Assembly: GCA_020851735.1 (NCBI GenBank) | Contig: JADZCD010000006.1 | Span: 1-64,000, forward strand | Direction of reading: 5' to 3' | From: Phycisphaeraceae bacterium | GTDB taxonomy: Bacteria; Planctomycetota; Phycisphaerae; Phycisphaerales; Phycisphaeraceae | Length of the DNA stretch: 64,000 bases | Shown: piece after piece, positions 3,088-48,370 of the stretch | Numbering within the stretch: position 1 is the stretch's first letter | How the letters are laid out: each line of letters starts with the position of its first letter | Notes under the pieces: model-generated | What the model was told of the DNA's origin: nothing | Seen by the model: only the letters and a program-made list of their open reading frames with translations | Databases searched by the model: none | Made by a program: the position numbers and the translations under genes

Positions 3088-3200
3088 AGGGTAAGGGGTA
3101 CAGGGTACGGGGTACGGGGTGGGCAAGGCGGGTGACGATGCTTATTCCAGAGCCACAGGGCAGGCATTATTTGCCACCCTGTACCCCGTACCCTGTACCC
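3088..3200. repeat. Inverted pair of GGGTACG heptad arrays
   Basis: The left arm (3088-3123) is a run of 7-bp units of the form GGGTACG/GGGTACA. The right arm (3177-3200) is the reverse complement (CCCTGTA, CCCCGTA). About 50 bases separate them. The pair fills the spacer between the 164-residue protein gene and the GH94 gene, both on the minus strand, and could fold as a large hairpin in a shared transcript. Confidence 0.75.
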
Positions 3201-21637: not shown

Positions 21638-22819
21638 ATGCCTGCCGACGCCAAGATTTTCTTTAAGCAACGCGTGATGACCCCCGGCCCGACCGACGTG
21701 CCTCCGGCCGTGCTGCTGGAGATGGCGCAGCCGATCATCCACCACCGCACCAAGCAGTTCCAGGCGATTTTTGTGCAGATGACCGGCAGGTTGGCCAACC
21801 TGTTTCGCACCAAGGGTACGGTGCTGACGCTGGCGGGTTCGGGCACGACGGCGTTTGAGTCGGCGATGATTTCGCTGGCTAAGCCGGGGTCGAAGGTTAT
21901 CACCATCGCGGGCGGGAAGTTCGGCGAACGGTGGCAGGACATTTACGATCAGTACGCGCCGTCGCTGCAGGTGGAGAACATCAAGATCAACGTGCCGTGG
22001 GGCCAGGCGGTGACGGCCCAGCAGGTCGCCGACGCGTTGGCGGCCAATCCGACGGCCAGCGTGGTGGCGCTGGTGCATTCAGAAACGTCCACGGCCACGG
22101 CGTGCGATCTAAAAGCGATCGCGCAGGTGGTGAGCAAGAGCAACGCGGTGCTGATCGCTGACTCGATCACCGGCGTGGGGGCGCTGCCGATGAGCATGGA
22201 CGAATGGGGCGTGGACTGCGTGGTGACGGGCTCGCAGAAGGCGCTGATGCTCCCGCCGGGGTTGGGATTTGTGGCCCTGGGCGCCCGGGCGCAGGAGAGG
22301 CTAAAGGAAGTCAAGGCGGGGGCGTATTACAACCTGGACCTGCGGCGGTGGGTGAAGGCCATGGCGGATAACGATCTGCCGTTCACCGCGCCGGTGAGCT
22401 TGATCCGCGGTCAAAACGTGGCGCTGGAACTCATTGAAAAGGAAGGGTTGGAAACGATCTGGGGCCGCGTGGCAAAACTGGCGACGGCGAGCCGGGCGGC
22501 GTTTGCGGCCATGGGACTGAAGCTGATCAGCGCAAGCCCCAGCGATTCGGTGACAGGCGTGTTTTATCCGGCCGGGGTGGAGGACTCGAAATTCCGCGGG
22601 GCGTTGCGGGATAAGTACGGACTGCACGTGGCTGGCGGACAGGATGGGCGCGGCGCGAAGTGGAAGACGAGCATTCTGCGCATCAGCCACATGGGCTATG
22701 TGGACGCGGGCGACACGCTGGCGGTGCTGGCGGCGATTGAAGCGGAGCTGCGCACCTTAGGCCAGAAGATCGATCCGGGCTGCGCGTTGGCGGCGGCGGC
22801 GAAGGTGCTGGCGGGGTGA
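21638..22819 (+). CDS. PLP-dependent aminotransferase, alanine-glyoxylate/serine-pyruvate family
   Basis: A 393-residue class V aminotransferase. TPGPTDVPPAVL is the typical start. TLAGSGTTAFESA contacts the phosphate. ADSITGVGALP holds the Asp that pairs with the pyridine ring. The PLP lysine is in TGSQKALMLPPG. Members convert serine or alanine with glyoxylate or pyruvate, and some act as phosphoserine aminotransferases in serine synthesis; substrate choice cannot be settled by eye. A GCGAGG lies upstream of ATG 21638. The last 15 bases of the gene (encoding VLAG and the stop) are part of a 32-bp repeat found again at the end of the gene at 24830-25399. Confidence 0.85.
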   Translation: MPADAKIFFKQRVMTPGPTDVPPAVLLEMAQPIIHHRTKQFQAIFVQMTGRLANLFRTKGTVLTLAGSGTTAFESAMISLAKPGSKVITIAGGKFGERWQDIYDQYAPSLQVENIKINVPWGQAVTAQQVADALAANPTASVVALVHSETSTATACDLKAIAQVVSKSNAVLIADSITGVGALPMSMDEWGVDCVVTGSQKALMLPPGLGFVALGARAQERLKEVKAGAYYNLDLRRWVKAMADNDLPFTAPVSLIRGQNVALELIEKEGLETIWGRVAKLATASRAAFAAMGLKLISASPSDSVTGVFYPAGVEDSKFRGALRDKYGLHVAGGQDGRGAKWKTSILRISHMGYVDAGDTLAVLAAIEAELRTLGQKIDPGCALAAAAKVLAG

Positions 22820-22836
22820 GATATTCACCACGGAGA
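22805..22836 (+). repeat. 32-bp direct repeat, left copy
   Basis: Begins GTGCTGGCGGGGTGAG and ends CACCACGGAGA. It is identical over 32 bases to 25385-25416. It covers the end of the aminotransferase gene and the first bases of a CACGGAG array. The two copies lie exactly 2580 bases apart and bracket the DUF2330/HExxH gene pair. Confidence 0.9.
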
Positions 22837-22843
22837 CACCAAG
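22827..22843 (+). repeat. Left arm of a split CACGGAG element
   Basis: The 17-base stretch ACCACGGAGACACCAAG is matched exactly by its reverse complement at 24677-24693. Elsewhere in the window (25399-25510) the two arms of such an element lie within 110 bases of each other. Here the DUF2330 gene lies between them. Confidence 0.8.
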
Positions 22844-22954
22844 CATACCGGACAGAGGGAGCCTGGAAGACGGAGGCTGGATGGGGCAACATTGTCTTCT
22901 TGGTTCAATGAGCTTGCGGTATTGTGTTTTCATCTCGATGAACGGAGACTCGGC

Positions 22955-24529
22955 ATGGGTTGCACGCAGCGCGTCGTCGTCTTCCTGCTGCTGGGCTTGC
23001 TGATGCCGGCGACCTCCTGCCTGGCCGACGGCAAAGTCTTCGCCACCGAAGCGATCCAGACGAGCATCCCCCGTCAGCAGGCTCTGCTCTGCTACCGCAA
23101 CGGCGTCGAGACCCTGGCCATCCAGACGGAGTTCGTCGGCAAGGGAAGTGAATTCGCCTGGGTCGTGCCCCTGCCCACGCCCCCGGAGGTGACGCCGACC
23201 ACGACGGGCTTGTTCCCGACGATCGACGCGCTGCTTGTGCGCGAGCTGCGAACAAGCCCGCCCTACGCCAGTGTCGTGGCGGCCCTTGTAGCCTGCGTCG
23301 TGCTGATGAATGTTCACGCGGTCAACGTTCGAATTGCGGCGGGACTGGTGATCATCGTCATTCTGTTAGCCATCAGCGTCTTTACACCCTCTCTCGGCCG
23401 TGCGGGTGGGCCCGTCGCGGCTGGGGCTACGCTCCTGGACCGTAAACCCATCGGCTCTTACGACGTGGCGACGCTGACCGGCTCAGACTCCAAGCAAGTG
23501 GTGCAATGGCTCGCCGGCCACGGCTTTAAGGTGCCGCCCGAGGTGATTCCCGGCTTGGACCACTACATCCAGAAGGGCTGGTGCTTCGTGGCCGCTCGGT
23601 TGCGCACGGATGCCGTGAGCGATCAGCCGATGACGCCGCACCCGCTGGTCTTTCGATTCAAGGCCAGCGAGGCGATCTATCCGATGTATCTGACCACCCT
23701 GGCCAACAGCCAGCCGCTGCGCCTGGACCTCTACGTGCTGGGGGATCGCCAGGCGGAGGCGAAAGATCTCCGCACGGTTCAGACCCGATTCGCCCTCTAT
23801 GACTCGTCCGAGCCGAGTGAGCACAAAGCACGTTTGCCAGTGGATACTGAGTTCCCGGTGGCACATCCGTCCCTACTTCAGATCGCTGATCACGCCCCCT
23901 ACTTGACTCACCTGTCCACCACCATCCAGGCCGGCGAATTGAGCGACGACGTCGAGCTGAGCTGGCGACGATTCGAGCTGTATCAACCGACGCTCTACAC
24001 GTACAGAGCCCGCAGACTGCTGGCGATGGATGCGGCGCTAACCCTTCTGATCATCGGCAGCCTTGTGGTCTATCTGCTGACGCTCGACGGCAAGATCGCC
24101 CGGGCGAAGGCACCGAGGTTCTACGGCGTAGTCCTATTCGTCGCCCTGGTCCTCGCCGTGACGATGTGGATGGCCCTCCCCGCCGCCGCGGCCGGACATG
24201 CCCGCTGGTACCACAGGTCACTGCGGCCGCGCACCCTCTACATTGTTCAAGAGACGATCCAGCCAGCCATCGCTGAAGTGATGAAGTCAGATCCATCCCT
24301 GCAGATCGACTACGAGTGGCTCCACCGTTTCTTGTTCACTGAGGAAGGAGCCACCCTACCTCCTCAAAGTGTCCTCGAACGCCCGCTCCGTGAGGAGGAT
24401 TCCCCGGCAGGCTTCAATCTTCGCACGACGGACGAGGGCTTCGAGCTGGTTGGCTTCGATCGCGTTGGCCGCCCTGATGTGGTGGCCTTCCGTGTGCCCG
24501 CCACCCCGACGACGCAACCGGCTGAGTAA
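22955..24529 (+). CDS. DUF2330-like membrane protein
   Basis: A 524-residue protein with an N-terminal signal segment (VVVFLLLGLLMP) ending in ATSCLADG; a lipoprotein cut at Cys or a normal cut after Ala are both possible. The next 100 residues match the DUF2330 pattern: DGKVF, QQALLCYRNGVETLAIQTEF and FAWVVPLPTPPEV. A hydrophobic stretch follows at about 110-140 and two more near 350-410. ATG 22955 was chosen for the signal peptide and the CGGAG upstream. The function of DUF2330 is unknown. The gene uses few of the TTA Leu codons common in its neighbours and is bracketed by repeats, which together suggest acquisition or movement. Confidence 0.7.
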   Translation: MGCTQRVVVFLLLGLLMPATSCLADGKVFATEAIQTSIPRQQALLCYRNGVETLAIQTEFVGKGSEFAWVVPLPTPPEVTPTTTGLFPTIDALLVRELRTSPPYASVVAALVACVVLMNVHAVNVRIAAGLVIIVILLAISVFTPSLGRAGGPVAAGATLLDRKPIGSYDVATLTGSDSKQVVQWLAGHGFKVPPEVIPGLDHYIQKGWCFVAARLRTDAVSDQPMTPHPLVFRFKASEAIYPMYLTTLANSQPLRLDLYVLGDRQAEAKDLRTVQTRFALYDSSEPSEHKARLPVDTEFPVAHPSLLQIADHAPYLTHLSTTIQAGELSDDVELSWRRFELYQPTLYTYRARRLLAMDAALTLLIIGSLVVYLLTLDGKIARAKAPRFYGVVLFVALVLAVTMWMALPAAAAGHARWYHRSLRPRTLYIVQETIQPAIAEVMKSDPSLQIDYEWLHRFLFTEEGATLPPQSVLERPLREEDSPAGFNLRTTDEGFELVGFDRVGRPDVVAFRVPATPTTQPAE

Positions 24530-24829
24530 CGGTAAAGGCCAGCCGATTCCTCGGGTCCGACGTAGGGTACGCATCCTGCGTGCCGATGCATGAAAACCAT
24601 GGCAGGCAGGACGCCTGCCCTACGATTTCTTCGTGGCCTTCGTGGTTTTTCTTGCTCAGCCTCTTCTTTTGTCGCCCTTGGTGTCTCCGTGGTCAATTGG
24701 ATTTTCACCGCAGAGGTAGGCGTAGGCGTAGAGAAACATCGAGAAATAATACTTGTCCAATCGTCCCGGCGATGTCGTCTCAACGCGCTCTGTGCGCGAC
24801 GACGAGCGCGACTGGGTCAGGGAGTGGTG
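24530..24829. other. Spacer with GGCAGG hairpin and right arm of CACGGAG element
   Basis: Contains the palindrome GGCAGGCAGGACGCCTGCC at 24601-24619, an array of CTTCGTGGC units at 24628-24645, and at 24677-24711 the arm CTTGGTGTCTCCGTGGT leading into ATTTTCACCG. The same ending GGTCAATTG-ATTTTCACCG appears at 25489-25508. No gene is seen here; the longer frame of the next gene through this stretch is not credible. Confidence 0.65.
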
Positions 24830-25399
24830 ATGGGACAGCGAATTCACACATGCTTGTTGCTCATCGGTCTGGCCGGCCTTTCCTGGCTGGGCATGATGGC
24901 GGTGCATGAAGCGGGACACGTCGGGGCTGCGTGGCTTACGGGCGGAACGATCGAGCGCGTTGTTTTTCACCCGCTGGCGTTTTCGCGCACGGACGTGTAC
25001 CCCAATCCCCATCCTCTGATCGTGGTATGGGCTGGGCCCACGGTCGGCGTGGGGCTGCCTGTCATCGCAGCGGGACTGCTGTGGGGGCACCGTCGGCCGG
25101 GGTGGGCTATGGCGGTTTTCCATGCTGGTTTCTGCTTAATCGCCAACGGAGCGTACATCGGCGCAGGCGTGGTTGACCCTGTTGGCGATGCGATGGACAT
25201 GATCAGGCTTGGGTCGCCAAGATGGCTGCTGTTGGTATTTGGCCTAGGCAGTGTGATGGCCGGCATCTGGTGCTGGCATAAAGTCAGTCCGGCGCTGGGC
25301 GTCGGCCGAGGGGCCAGGCCAGTTCGAGCGAGTCAGGCGTATGCTCTGTTTGCGGTGGCGATCGTGGTGTTTGTATTGGGCTGCGTGCTGGCGGGGTGA
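24830..25399 (+). CDS. Predicted membrane protein with HExxH zinc-protease motif (M50-like)
   Basis: A 189-residue protein with about five hydrophobic segments. HEAGH (26-30) inside the first or second helix is the zinc-binding motif of intramembrane M50-type proteases, but I do not see a convincing second motif (the NxxPxxxxDG type); VVDPVGDAMDM at about 113-123 might supply the Asp. ATG 24830 has GGAG 5 bases upstream. It could be an intramembrane protease or an inactive relative. Its last four codons and stop (VLAG) coincide with the 32-bp repeat also found at the end of the aminotransferase gene. Confidence 0.6.
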   Translation: MGQRIHTCLLLIGLAGLSWLGMMAVHEAGHVGAAWLTGGTIERVVFHPLAFSRTDVYPNPHPLIVVWAGPTVGVGLPVIAAGLLWGHRRPGWAMAVFHAGFCLIANGAYIGAGVVDPVGDAMDMIRLGSPRWLLLVFGLGSVMAGIWCWHKVSPALGVGRGARPVRASQAYALFAVAIVVFVLGCVLAG

Positions 25400-25416
25400 G
25401 ATATTCACCACGGAGA
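25385..25416 (+). repeat. 32-bp direct repeat, right copy
   Basis: Identical to 22805-22836. It includes the 3' end of the HExxH gene and the start of the CACGGAG array at 25400. See the left copy for the geometry. Confidence 0.9.
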
Positions 25417-25745
25417 ACACAGAGAACACGGGGCATGATTCATAAGCAGGACTCCTGGATTGGCTCCGTGGTCTCCGTGAACTCCGTGGTCAATTGAATT
25501 TTCACCGCCGAGAGCGCCGTCTTCGACCCTGAGGCTGAGTCTTGGGCTCAGCCCCGAAGGGAGGACGCGGAGATTTAGCCGCAGATAAACGCAGATGAAC
25601 GCAGATCAAACCAAGACTTTTCGTACCTGACACTTGATGGTGTCAGGCTCTGTATATCTGCGTTCATCTGCGTTTATCTGCGGCTTATTTTTTGCCTTTC
25701 TCTGCGTTCTCGGCGGCCTCGGCGTCCTCGGCGGTGAATGTTTTT
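25400..25745. repeat. Stacked and nested inverted arrays (CACGGAG, CGCAGATAAA, CCGCCGAG)
   Basis: Three array families share this gene-free stretch. CACGGAGAA units at 25404-25430 pair with CTCCGTGGT units at 25467-25493. A CCGCCGAG arm at 25502-25520 pairs with CTCGGCGGC units at 25707-25736. Nested inside the latter is a third pair, 10-bp CGCAGATAAA units at 25577-25606 and their complement at 25654-25684. At its centre is the small hairpin CCTGACAC...GTGTCAGG (25626-25647). No gene is seen. Confidence 0.75.
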
Positions 25746-26516
25746 TTAGATTGGCGCGCCTTGGGGGAAGCGGTCCTGGGCGGTAAAGCCGGCGAGGATT
25801 CGGCCGGGCGCGGGGTCGAAGATGGCGTGGTCCACGGGGACGCCGGTGGCAAAGAGCAGGCCGAAGCGCCCGCCCTTTTGGCCGACCTGTTCGCCGGCGG
25901 TGCCGGGCTTGCCGGCCAGGCCCGCTTCGGCGCAGCAGGCAAAGCAGCGGCCGGCGTCGGCGGGACTGATGTAAAAATTCTGGGCCCCCTGGTGCCGCCG
26001 AATATGCTCCACCGCGGCCGCGTCGCGCGGCATCCAGCCTAAGCGCACGGCCAGGACGGACAGGCCGTGGGCGTGGGCGTACATGCGGCCCATTTCCTCG
26101 GCTAAGAATTTTGAGAGAGCGTAATGATTGGTCGGGGCGGCGCCATGTTCGATGCGCAGGAGGCTGTCTTGCTGGTGGATGCCGCTGACGACCTGCATGC
26201 TGCTGGCCAAAACGACGCGGGCCAGGCCGGCCGCGCGGGCGGCTTCCATTACGTAATAGAGGCCCAGGTAATTGTTGGGCAAAATGGCGGTGACAAAATC
26301 GCCCATGTCCGGCTGGGCGGCTAAGTGCACCAGGGCTTGGCGGTCGGCCATGGCTTTCGTGACTAAGTCAAAATCGGTGATCGATCCGACGAAGTTTTCC
26401 GGCAGGCGGGAGTTTTCTTTCAGGTCCAGGCCACGCACGTGATGGCCGCGGGCGAGAAGTTCGGCGCAAACGGCGCGCCCCACGGCTCCGGCGGATCCAG
26501 TGACTAAGACGTTCAT
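25746..26516 (-). CDS. NAD-dependent epimerase/dehydratase-type SDR (uronate dehydrogenase-like)
   Basis: A 256-residue extended-type SDR. VTGSAGAVGRAV (5-16) is the glycine-rich NAD loop, VLASSMQVVSG holds the catalytic Ser, and YALSKFLAEEMGR the Tyr and Lys. The short length and the HLAAQPD motif resemble uronate dehydrogenases, which oxidise glucuronate or galacturonate, but sugar epimerase activity is equally possible. ATG 26516 has GAGG-type bases upstream; longer frames run through a repeat. The nearby iron alcohol dehydrogenase and aldehyde dehydrogenase, all on the minus strand, may belong to one catabolic set. Confidence 0.72.
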   Translation of the reverse strand: MNVLVTGSAGAVGRAVCAELLARGHHVRGLDLKENSRLPENFVGSITDFDLVTKAMADRQALVHLAAQPDMGDFVTAILPNNYLGLYYVMEAARAAGLARVVLASSMQVVSGIHQQDSLLRIEHGAAPTNHYALSKFLAEEMGRMYAHAHGLSVLAVRLGWMPRDAAAVEHIRRHQGAQNFYISPADAGRCFACCAEAGLAGKPGTAGEQVGQKGGRFGLLFATGVPVDHAIFDPAPGRILAGFTAQDRFPQGAPI

Positions 26517-26824
26517 ACCCCTGCCTCGCGTCATAAGTAAATAACCGCCAAGTCGCCAAGAACGCCAAGAGAACACCCAAAATGGATGTGCCTGCGGAAC
26601 GAATCATGGCATGATTCCACGAGCCTTGGCGTCGCCGGCACGGAGGATGATTCTATCCGTTCGCAGAGCGTGGGGAAGGATTGATTGAAACAAGCAAGAC
26701 AATCGCCCGGGAATTCCGCCCCTGGTTTTTGGCGAAACCGCACACAGCAGCCTTCGGCCTGCTGTGTGGCACCCAAAACCTGCATACCCCCGGCGCCCCG
26801 GATGAGGGACAACCTGCACGGCGG
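26517..26824. other. Spacer with CGCCAAG arm and CACACAGCA hairpin
   Basis: No gene is seen. A left-type CGCCAAG array (26542-26572) stands here without a good right partner. The hairpin at 26741-26774 repeats the one at 161-194. Together they separate the iron alcohol dehydrogenase gene from the epimerase-like gene. Confidence 0.55.
26741..26774. repeat. Hairpin with CACACAGCA arms, copy 2
   Basis: CACACAGCAG, CCTTCGGC, CTGCTGTGTG, then GCACCC. Same outer arms and tail as at 161-194, with a stable TTCG loop. It lies about 50 bases past the stop of the minus-strand iron alcohol dehydrogenase gene. Confidence 0.6.
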
Positions 26825-28051
26825 CTAGAACGCCTGCTGGTACAACGCGACGATCTGGGCGGCGTTGGGCACGCGGGGATTGTTCTGCGGGCTGCCGGAG
26901 GCCAGGGCGTCTTCAGCCATCTTGCCGACCTGGGCGTCGAATTTCTCCCGCGGCACGCCCTTACACTGACCTAAGCGCGGCACGGCCAGGTCGTGGTTGA
27001 GTTTTTCCAGGGCGTCGACGAGTTTGGCGCAGGCGGTTTGTTCGGTGTCGATCGGGCTGGCGACGCCCATGGTCCGCGCCACGGCGGCATAGCGATGTTG
27101 GGCCCGGGCGGCTTCGATGCCGTCGCCGGCGATCGACCAGCGGGTGACGGTGGGCAGGAGCACGGCGTTGGACAGGCCATGCGGGAGGTGGAAGACGGCG
27201 CCGATGGGCCGACTCATGCCGTGGACGAGGCAGACGGAGGCGTTGGCGAAGGCCATGCCGCCCTGACAGGCGGCCAGCATCATGCCTTCGCGGGCGACTT
27301 CGTGGGTCGGCTGGGCATAGGCGTGCTGAAGGTGCTTGGCACAGAGGCTGATGCAGGAGAGGGCGATGGGGTCGGTCAGGCCGCTGGCTTTGCGGGAGAC
27401 GTAGGCTTCGATGCCGTGGGTGAGGGTGTCGACGCCGACGGCGGCGGTGAGGGCGGGGGGCATGGTCATGGTGAGCTTGTAGTCAACGACGGCAGCGCGA
27501 GGCAGAAGCAGGGCGTCGAGCATCATCATTTTTTCCTGACGCTCGGTGTCGGTGATCACGGCGACTTTGGTGACTTCGCTGCCGGTGCCGGCGGTGGTGG
27601 GGACGGCGATCAGACCCGGCAACTGCGAGGTGTTGATTTTGGCCGGCGCGGCGGCTTCGGTGAATTTGTGATAGCCCTTGTATTGCCGCATGGGTTCGGG
27701 GAAGGCGGACAAGAGGGCGATGACCTTGGCGCAGTCCAAGGCGCTGCCGCCGCCTAGGGCGACGATGGCCTGGGCTTGGGCGTGGCGCAGGGCGGTCAGG
27801 CCGGCGCGGACGTTTTCGTCGGTCGGATCGGGCTGCACGTCGGCGAAGACGGCTACTTCTAACCCGGCGGCGCGCAGGGAGGATTCCATCTTGCCGGCCA
27901 CGCCCATCCGCACCAGGCCGGGGTCGGTGACCAGCAGGACGCGGGAGGCGCCCCAGCGCCTGGCGATTGGGCCGGCCTGATCGCTGGCACCGCCGCCGAC
28001 GAGGATGGTGGAAGGTACGTTGAATTGCGATGCGACTGCGGGCACGGTCAT
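26825..28051 (-). CDS. Iron-containing alcohol dehydrogenase
   Basis: A 408-residue group III dehydrogenase. GGGSALDCAK (100-109) is the NAD-binding signature and VPTTAGTGSEVT the typical loop. The metal ligands are expected in HGIEAYVSRKA and in CLVHGMSRPIGAVFHLPHGLSNA, where both conserved His residues are present. Such enzymes reduce or oxidise simple alcohols, lactaldehyde or semialdehydes. It lies between an aldehyde dehydrogenase and an epimerase-like SDR on the same strand but with repeat-filled spacers of about 270-310 bases, so joint transcription is uncertain. Confidence 0.88.
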   Translation of the reverse strand: MTVPAVASQFNVPSTILVGGGASDQAGPIARRWGASRVLLVTDPGLVRMGVAGKMESSLRAAGLEVAVFADVQPDPTDENVRAGLTALRHAQAQAIVALGGGSALDCAKVIALLSAFPEPMRQYKGYHKFTEAAAPAKINTSQLPGLIAVPTTAGTGSEVTKVAVITDTERQEKMMMLDALLLPRAAVVDYKLTMTMPPALTAAVGVDTLTHGIEAYVSRKASGLTDPIALSCISLCAKHLQHAYAQPTHEVAREGMMLAACQGGMAFANASVCLVHGMSRPIGAVFHLPHGLSNAVLLPTVTRWSIAGDGIEAARAQHRYAAVARTMGVASPIDTEQTACAKLVDALEKLNHDLAVPRLGQCKGVPREKFDAQVGKMAEDALASGSPQNNPRVPNAAQIVALYQQAF

Positions 28052-28317
28052 GATGCGCTCCTCTGTCCCCCTGCCGATCTTTGATACCGGTATCTTCGCT
28101 AAAACCCGTACCCCCCGGCACCCCCGGAACAGCCGGGGGCTGATATTGATTTCTGAGGCTGGCCCTGCTTTTCCATGTGGGGCGGTGACGCGCGGTAGTT
28201 CGATTAGTCCAACCGCGGGCTTCCGCCCGCGGCTATTTCCCGTGGAAATCGGATGCCTTTCCTTAGGCTCTCATCCCTAATTCCCAACTCCTGATTCCTG
28301 ACTCCCCCCCCCACTGC
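28052..28317. repeat. Spacer with three repeat types
   Basis: Holds a CCCCCGGC hairpin at 28111-28141 (compare 3925-3946), a GCCCTGC/CATGTGGGGC imperfect hairpin near 28161-28183, the CCGCGGGC hairpin with CTATT tail at 28213-28237 (compare 12396-12420) and a degenerate TCCCTAATTCCCAACTCC heptad array at 28270-28306 that abuts the end of the aldehyde dehydrogenase gene. No gene is seen. Confidence 0.6.
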
Positions 28318-29808
28318 TTACCAGCCTTGGGTTCTTCGATATTCGCTGTCCCAGCGGGAGAGGACGACCTTTTGGCGGGTGTAGAACATCACGCCTTCGT
28401 GGCCCTGGACGTGGAGGTCGCCGAAGAAGCTGCGACCCCAGCCGGAGAAGGAGAACAGGGCCATGGGCGCGGGCACGCCGACGTTCACGCCGATCATCCC
28501 GCACTGAATGCCCAGGGAAAACTCGCGGGCGTGACGGCCGCTGGTGGTGAAGATCGACGCGCCGTTGCCGTAGGGGCTGCGATTGGCCCAGGCGAGGGCT
28601 TCTTGCAGGTTTTGGGGGCGCATCATCGAGAGGACGGGCCCGAAGATTTCGTCCGCGGCAAGCTTCGATCCCGGCTGCACGTTGTCGAAGAGCGTGGGCC
28701 CGACGAAGTAGCCTTCGCTGGGCAGGCTGCCGGGTAATTTTCGCCCGTCGCGGACGAGCTGGGCGCCTTCTTTTTGGCCCAGGTCCAGGTAGGACAGGAT
28801 GCGCTGTTTGGCGGGCGCGTCGATGACCGGGCCCATCTGGGCGGAAGGGTCGGCCGAGGTGTCGGCGACCTTCAGGGCGTCGATGGCTTCGGCGACGCGT
28901 TTCTGGACGGCGCTGGCGGTTTCGCCCACGCCCATGAGAATTGAACCGGCCATGCATCGCTGCCCGGCGCAGCCGAAGGCGGCGCCCATGACGGCGCGCA
29001 GGGTGGAGTCCGGCTCGGCGTCGGGCATGACCACCATCACGTTCTTGGCGCCGCCGGCCGCCTGCACGCGCTTGCCGTGCTGGGTGCCGAGGACGTAAAC
29101 GTGTTCGGCGATTTTCGTGGAGCCCACGAAGCTGAGCGCGACGATGCCCGGATGCGTGCAGAGGGCGTCGACCACCGCCCGCCCGCCGTGCACGACGTTG
29201 AGCACGCCTTCGGGGAACCCGGCGGCAAGGAATAATTCGGCCAGGCGATTGGCGGTCAGGGGCACTTTTTCGCTGGGTTTTAAGATAAACGTGTTGCCGC
29301 AGGCGATGGCGATGGGGAACATCCACATGGGGACCATGGCGGGGAAATTGTAGGGCGTGATGCCGGCGCAGACGCCGATGGGCTCGCGCATGGTGACGCC
29401 GTCGATCTGATCGGCCACGCGGGGGAGGCTTTCGCCTTTGGCCAGTTCGCCGATGCCGCAGGCCAGTTCGACGACTTCCACGCCCCGGCGCACGTCGCCG
29501 CGGGATTCGTCGAGGGTCTTGCCGTTCTCCAAGGTGACGATCTTGGCCAGTTCCTCAAAATGTTCCTCCAGCAGGGCGCGGTACTTGAACATATACCCGG
29601 CGCGTTTGGTGGGCGGGGTGACGGACCAGGAGGCGAATGCCTTTTGCGCGGCTTGGACGGCGGCGTCCACGTCGGCGGGCCCGCCCAGGGGCACGCGGGC
29701 GATCAACTGTCCGCGCGAGGGATTGAAGATCGACCCGAACTCGGCGACGGTGGGGTGGACCCACTGCTTGCCGATGAGCATGGGGACTTCTTGGATGGTC
29801 GTGGTCAT
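28318..29808 (-). CDS. mmsA: Methylmalonate-semialdehyde dehydrogenase (CoA-acylating)
   Basis: A 496-residue aldehyde dehydrogenase of the MmsA/IolA type. It converts methylmalonate or malonate semialdehyde to propionyl- or acetyl-CoA in valine or inositol breakdown. Typical features are ITPYNFPAMVPMWMFPIA, GSTKIAEHVY and the catalytic-Cys motif FGCAGQRCMA; then come DEIFGPVLS and the family C terminus SFFGDLHVQGHEGVMFYTRQK. The length fits the family exactly. The other inositol or valine genes are not in the window, so which pathway it serves is open. Confidence 0.92.
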   Translation of the reverse strand: MTTTIQEVPMLIGKQWVHPTVAEFGSIFNPSRGQLIARVPLGGPADVDAAVQAAQKAFASWSVTPPTKRAGYMFKYRALLEEHFEELAKIVTLENGKTLDESRGDVRRGVEVVELACGIGELAKGESLPRVADQIDGVTMREPIGVCAGITPYNFPAMVPMWMFPIAIACGNTFILKPSEKVPLTANRLAELFLAAGFPEGVLNVVHGGRAVVDALCTHPGIVALSFVGSTKIAEHVYVLGTQHGKRVQAAGGAKNVMVVMPDAEPDSTLRAVMGAAFGCAGQRCMAGSILMGVGETASAVQKRVAEAIDALKVADTSADPSAQMGPVIDAPAKQRILSYLDLGQKEGAQLVRDGRKLPGSLPSEGYFVGPTLFDNVQPGSKLAADEIFGPVLSMMRPQNLQEALAWANRSPYGNGASIFTTSGRHAREFSLGIQCGMIGVNVGVPAPMALFSFSGWGRSFFGDLHVQGHEGVMFYTRQKVVLSRWDSEYRRTQGW

Positions 29809-29965
29809 TTTTTTACTCCCGCCCCCCCAAGGCCGCGATTTCCGCGGCTAGCCAGCTTGATAGTATCCCCCCCCCACTGCTCCCTCCCCCTTTCCGTCAG
29901 GACCGGGCATCCTATCACATCACGCGTATCTAACGCATTCAACCATCTTGCTCTATCCTGTGGGG

Positions 29966-37105: not shown

Positions 37106-37142
37106 TTTCCCTAATCCCTAACCCCTAATCCCCAACCCCTTC
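37106..37142. repeat. CCCTAAT/CCCCAAC heptad array
   Basis: Five 7-bp units (CCCTAAT, CCCTAAC, CCCTAAT, CCCCAAC) ending 6 bases short of the stop of the minus-strand DUF1802 gene. It matches, in reverse, the array between fliP and fliQ at 48331-48370. Confidence 0.7.
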
Positions 37143-48324: not shown

Positions 48325-48330
48325 GGCAAT

Positions 48331-48370
48331 TGGGGGTTGGGGGTTAGGGGTTGGGGATTAGGGGTTAGGG
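48331..48370. repeat. GGGGTTA heptad array between fliP and fliQ
   Basis: Five to six units of GGGGTTG/GGGGTTA/GGGGATTA starting at the base after the fliP stop codon and ending 6 bases before the fliQ start. It occupies the whole spacer of two otherwise tightly linked operon genes. Confidence 0.8.

Follow-up and report, generated by a model that had tools for sequence, protein, structure and literature searches.

Intervening sequences (IVSs) of 23S rRNA that carry an S23p open reading frame have been described, for instance in Coxiella burnetii (PMC4990558). Tandem arrays of heptamers are frequent in bacterial intergenic regions and lack an explanation, and in Xanthomonas these arrays often occur as inverted pairs (PMC4692102). 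The locus presented here contains inverted arrays of this kind. It lies in the window, i.e., the whole analysed stretch of 64,000 nucleotides, which comes from one contig (C6) of a metagenome-assembled genome of 3.56 Mb in 69 contigs.

In this window, a 32-bp sequence is present as two direct copies on the plus strand, at 22805-22836 and at 25385-25416. The sequence-only reading had described these copies as identical and as made of a gene end followed by the start of an array, and both statements were borne out. Indeed, identity is exact across the 32 bp, and no third copy was found in the genome when up to three mismatches were allowed. Each copy consists of the last four codons and the stop of the upstream gene (VLAG*), GATA, and the 13-bp sequence TTCACCACGGAGA. 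The latter is the start of a dispersed CACGGAG-array hairpin element and has 16 exact sites genome-wide. The first 19 bp, instead, are private to these two copies: no other genomic match has fewer than three mismatches, and three further places have exactly three. Scaling from these three places, roughly 1e-4 exact copies would be expected anywhere in the genome, hence a chance origin of the 32-bp match is very unlikely.

The right copy forms the left edge of an intact hairpin, S2 (25403-25494), located 3' of a gene for an HExxH membrane protein. Its 32-nt CACGGAG/CACAGAG arms are 81% complementary, and it folds as a single hairpin with a short loop (-46.8 kcal/mol, z -4.8). The left copy forms the left edge of a second hairpin, S1, whose left arm ATTCACCACGGAGACACCAAG (22823-22843, plus strand) pairs at 20 of 21 positions with an inverted 21-bp partner at 24677-24697. 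The 15-mer core of these arms, CACGGAGACACCAAG, is found in the genome only at 22829 (plus strand) and, inverted, at 24677 (minus strand), even at one mismatch. The arms are about 1.83 kb apart, enclose a DUF2330 gene and are not paired locally; unlike S2, the left half of S1 does not form a hairpin by itself. Besides this arm pair, the sequence-only reading overlooked a second direct repeat, CTCCGTGGTCAATTGRATTTTCACCGC (31 bp, 94% identity), at 24685-24715 and 25482-25512 on the plus strand, the 27-bp core of which has only these two genomic copies. Its first copy spans the right edge of S1 and its second copy the right edge of S2, i.e., the other edge of the same hairpin together with the start of the next array. 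As the second repeat marks the opposite edge of the hairpin, both outer edges of one composite were duplicated, as S1 and S2. The spacing between copies is 797 bp for the second repeat versus 2580 bp for the 32-bp repeat, which means that the duplicated unit was the hairpin, placed on either side of the HExxH gene, with the DUF2330 gene inside S1. From edge to edge, S2 spans about 128 bp and S1 1.9 kb, because the DUF2330 gene sits between the two arms of S1; the order along the locus is thus aminotransferase, left arm of S1, DUF2330, right arm of S1, HExxH and S2. We therefore interpret the 32-bp repeat, with a probability of about 0.6, as the edge of a duplicated non-coding hairpin element and not as the scar of a 2.58-kb circle.

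The arrays of this genome were counted in partial samples of stretches (469 kb; about 0.82 Mb overall) and by genome-wide sequence searches. Most CACGGAG arrays are hairpins of about 60-130 bp with the form TTCACCACGGAGA.CACGGAG..loop..CTCCGTG.TCTCCGTGGTGAA, and about 19 array clusters were present in the 469-kb sample. The flanks outside these hairpins vary by site, except for the two copies considered here. A scan of 629 kb of related genomes returned no CACGGAG hairpin, so this exact arm type was amplified in the present lineage. In its terminal inverted repeats and many genomic copies, the class to which S1 and S2 belong is like a MITE-type dispersed hairpin. Other hairpin segments are locally duplicated in the sampled genome at spacings of 0.4-1.5 kb (e.g., L187 1743/3286, L194 16998/17653 and L204 6065/6894), which indicates that this type of event is recurrent here. 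At L194:16998-17707, a hairpin and its flanks are duplicated on either side of a gene that has matching palindromes and resembles a Y1 (IS200-like) transposase gene. This arrangement is reminiscent of a REPIN/RAYT locus, RAYT being the Y1 transposases to which REPINs are linked.

Immediately downstream of S2, a further hairpin with TTCACCGCCGAG arms occupies 25501-25738. It is a hairpin within a hairpin, since the loop of the CGCCGAG hairpin holds a CGCAGAT inverted repeat (25577-25685; 30 bp perfect). Its left arm contains a 45-bp palindromic insert, GTCTTCGACC...GAAGGGAG (about 25519-25563), also found inside arrays of L196, L197 and L200. Other heptamer arrays of the window lie at 3089-3200, 37108-37140 and 48329-48370 (GGGTACG/ACCCTGT, CCCTAAT and GGGGTTA), and the GGGTACG type matches arms that flank an S23 gene at another place in the genome (L286/L205).

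The gene upstream of S1 encodes a class-V aminotransferase (21638-22819, plus strand; Pfam Aminotran_5), whose VLAG* end is the left part of the first repeat copy. Its nearest named relatives belong to Phycisphaera-like planctomycete MAGs. The protein ends in KVLAG, while relatives end at the same place in KVLGA, KVLLT or GVLAGK, hence the aminotransferase end is native. The DUF2330 gene (22955-24529, plus strand; PF10092, E=5e-29) and the HExxH gene (24830-25399, plus strand), an open reading frame with no Pfam match, follow. The C-terminus of the HExxH protein, LGCVLAG, also fits its own family (LGFVVGG in L132, LGLLAGD) and may accordingly be native rather than grafted, although a graft of its last four codons is conceivable.

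The surroundings of the aminotransferase were then compared in 20 genomes of the same family or order. In 7/20, homologues of the genes at 29948, 30914 and/or 31678 lie behind the aminotransferase in the same orientation, and in one relative the next gene starts about 55 bp past the aminotransferase stop. DUF2330, HExxH, SDR, Fe-ADH and ALDH genes, which together with several arrays make up the block at 22820-29947, were found near the aminotransferase in none of the 20 (0/20). Since relatives pass directly from the aminotransferase to these downstream homologues, the region from 22.8 to 29.9 kb represents one or several insertions in this lineage. The sequence-only reading had proposed to look for an empty site in related genomes; the one present in relatives lacks the whole 7.1 kb and not 2.58 kb. 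The "two-gene module" of that reading fared worse: among 50 other family genomes, 15 carry HExxH homologues, at other locations, DUF2330 homologues are present in 5 family genomes, and in no relative examined are the two adjacent to each other or to the aminotransferase. The composition of the block is uniform, the inserted genes being near their neighbours, with a lower GC3 (0.70) for HExxH.

That the repeat reflects either the integration of a circle or the duplication of a segment had also been put forward from the sequence alone; the duplication stands in kind, whereas the circle is not supported. A 2.58-kb circle bearing DUF2330 and HExxH that had entered through one crossover at the 32-bp sequence would account for one direct repeat at each end. 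However, the donor would have needed the aminotransferase end, the second repeat is spaced differently (797 bp), and in relatives the two genes do not occur side by side. Moreover, Pfam and NCBIfam searches of both genes gave no recombinase or transposase, and the open reading frames of the segment with their Pfam matches included no transposase of the kind that a composite transposon or IS insertion would carry. As for a circular cassette, no recombinase such as an integrase was seen by Pfam among the genes inside and no attC-like site by Rfam, for which a scan of 22-30 kb returned nothing convincing and no attC family. Instead of a single terminal direct repeat on an all-or-none unit, the segment has a second, nested repeat with another spacing, and relatives are without 7.1 kb. 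The circle is thus improbable. An assembly artefact could be suspected in a genome of 69 contigs, as 32 bp is near short k-mer lengths, but the flanks of the block, both syntenic with relatives, the uniform composition and the two repeat pairs with different spacings leave this explanation very little weight. Convergent or fortuitous VLAG* gene ends beside a common repeat would be compatible with both ends fitting their protein families; with a match of about 19 bp beyond the element on each side, unique in the genome, such a coincidence is barely credible. Gene conversion between pre-existing hairpins, in which a CACGGAG hairpin stood behind both genes and repair copied one of them with short flanks, benefits from the frequency of these hairpins and from the family-like end of HExxH. 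It would nevertheless require that the right flank with its unique junction was converted too, and, of the 16 exact element starts, no other two have common flanks, which makes it unlikely.

The favoured reading, a lineage-specific insertion region in which a hairpin and its flanks were duplicated around HExxH while DUF2330 occupies the loop of the other copy, appears reasonably probable. Under this scenario, the region behind the aminotransferase would have gained new genes in this lineage. The hairpin behind the aminotransferase would then have been copied with about 19 bp of gene end and the start of the next array, leaving HExxH between S1 and S2, most likely through a switch of template or an unequal recombination event where a fork had stalled in the hairpin array. 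Finally, the DUF2330 gene would have ended up in the loop of S1, splitting its arms. Because the two spacings differ, we infer that the hairpin was duplicated first and that DUF2330 came second; the copying mechanism and a role of the hairpin in gene capture are similarly deduced rather than observed. The interiors of S1 and S2 differ, which may reflect an old copying event or a replacement of the interiors. Excision by recombination across the 32-bp repeat would be possible; a homology of 32 bp is close to the shortest that RecA recombines efficiently, so that frequent excision is not expected. In itself, the 32-bp repeat is a trace of ordinary plasticity of the genome.

The hairpins point to a wider class. 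The sole GxxExxY gene of this genome (PF13366, TIGR04256) lies among CACGGAG hairpins, and the stretch directly upstream of it is similar to the loop found in the solo hairpins. In related genomes, inverted arrays stand close on both sides, with a score of at least 16, of 32/49 GxxExxY genes and of 20/29 genes for S23/IVS proteins (PF05635). Bracketing inverted arrays were found for 2/419 control open reading frames, 0/19 aminotransferases and 0/14 HExxH homologues. The threshold of 16 was set after the first scores had been seen; families and controls lie so far apart that the conclusion is unaffected. When the left flank of one gene was compared with the right flank of another, only 5% and 1% paired, hence each gene copy has its own arms. 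The array unit recurs every 8-10 bp around most GxxExxY genes and every 7-8 bp around S23 genes. Arms of this kind also surround two GxxExxY genes of Bacteroidota plasmids. Among Phycisphaerae relatives (L234-L283, L284-L313), short-unit inverted arrays around GxxExxY and S23/IVS-protein genes vary in sequence from copy to copy.

In this genome, the idea that genes in loops are common was rejected, as few cases were seen in 0.82 Mb: unpaired inverted arms enclose DUF2330, the GxxExxY gene, two S23 genes and a few open reading frames whose status is unclear or which lie between G-rich arrays. At L217:14410-15141, a protein-kinase-like open reading frame between unpaired inverted CCCCTAA arrays may be a further unusual gene enclosed by an array pair.

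S1 and S2 have the inverted arms of short tandem units that characterize one-gene hairpin elements; between them, S1 holds DUF2330 and S2 a short loop, and neither a GxxExxY nor an S23 gene. From the bracketing of such genes in relatives, S2 looks like a gene-less (MITE-like) version of a class in which the loop is often occupied by a GxxExxY or S23/IVS-type gene. More tentatively, and with rather low confidence, intergenic inverted heptamer arrays in general could be the ends of small mobile elements whose usual product is a GxxExxY (PDDEXK-like) or S23/IVS protein; the solo hairpins would be their gene-less derivatives and the loop a gene-capture platform that takes up foreign genes such as DUF2330. 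Inverted pairs flank genes of two unrelated small protein families far more often than control open reading frames, and unit spacing tracks the enclosed gene. Owing to this bracketing, the question of where intergenic heptamer arrays originate can be tested directly, and possible targets of GxxExxY proteins are suggested. A literature search of partial coverage returned no paper in which GxxExxY or S23 genes are connected with heptamer hairpins.

With regard to known systems, the 7-bp tandem arrays between genes recall the heptamer repeats of Xanthomonas and Nostoc (PMC4692102) and of Beggiatoaceae (PMC4679880); in the portions of these reports considered, unlike at the present locus, no gene inside an inverted pair is linked to the arrays. 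As short, dispersed, palindromic intergenic repeats without a transposase of their own, the hairpins are also like MITEs, REPs and REPINs (PMC3733652, PMC3116915), from which they differ by arms made of tandem 7-mers and by a separate gene family (GxxExxY) having the same kind of arms. In contrast to rRNA IVSs (PMC4990558), the elements examined here adjoin protein-coding genes and their arms are arrays of 7-10-bp units; S2 is without an open reading frame and S1 encloses DUF2330. Nevertheless, the class shares with rRNA IVSs (PMC4990558) a long stem whose loop contains one small open reading frame, and the S23 family (PF05635) itself is found here in inverted arrays. S2-like hairpins would seem to be related to one-gene elements that are akin to rRNA IVSs, though gene-less themselves, and S1 would be a member holding an unusual gene.
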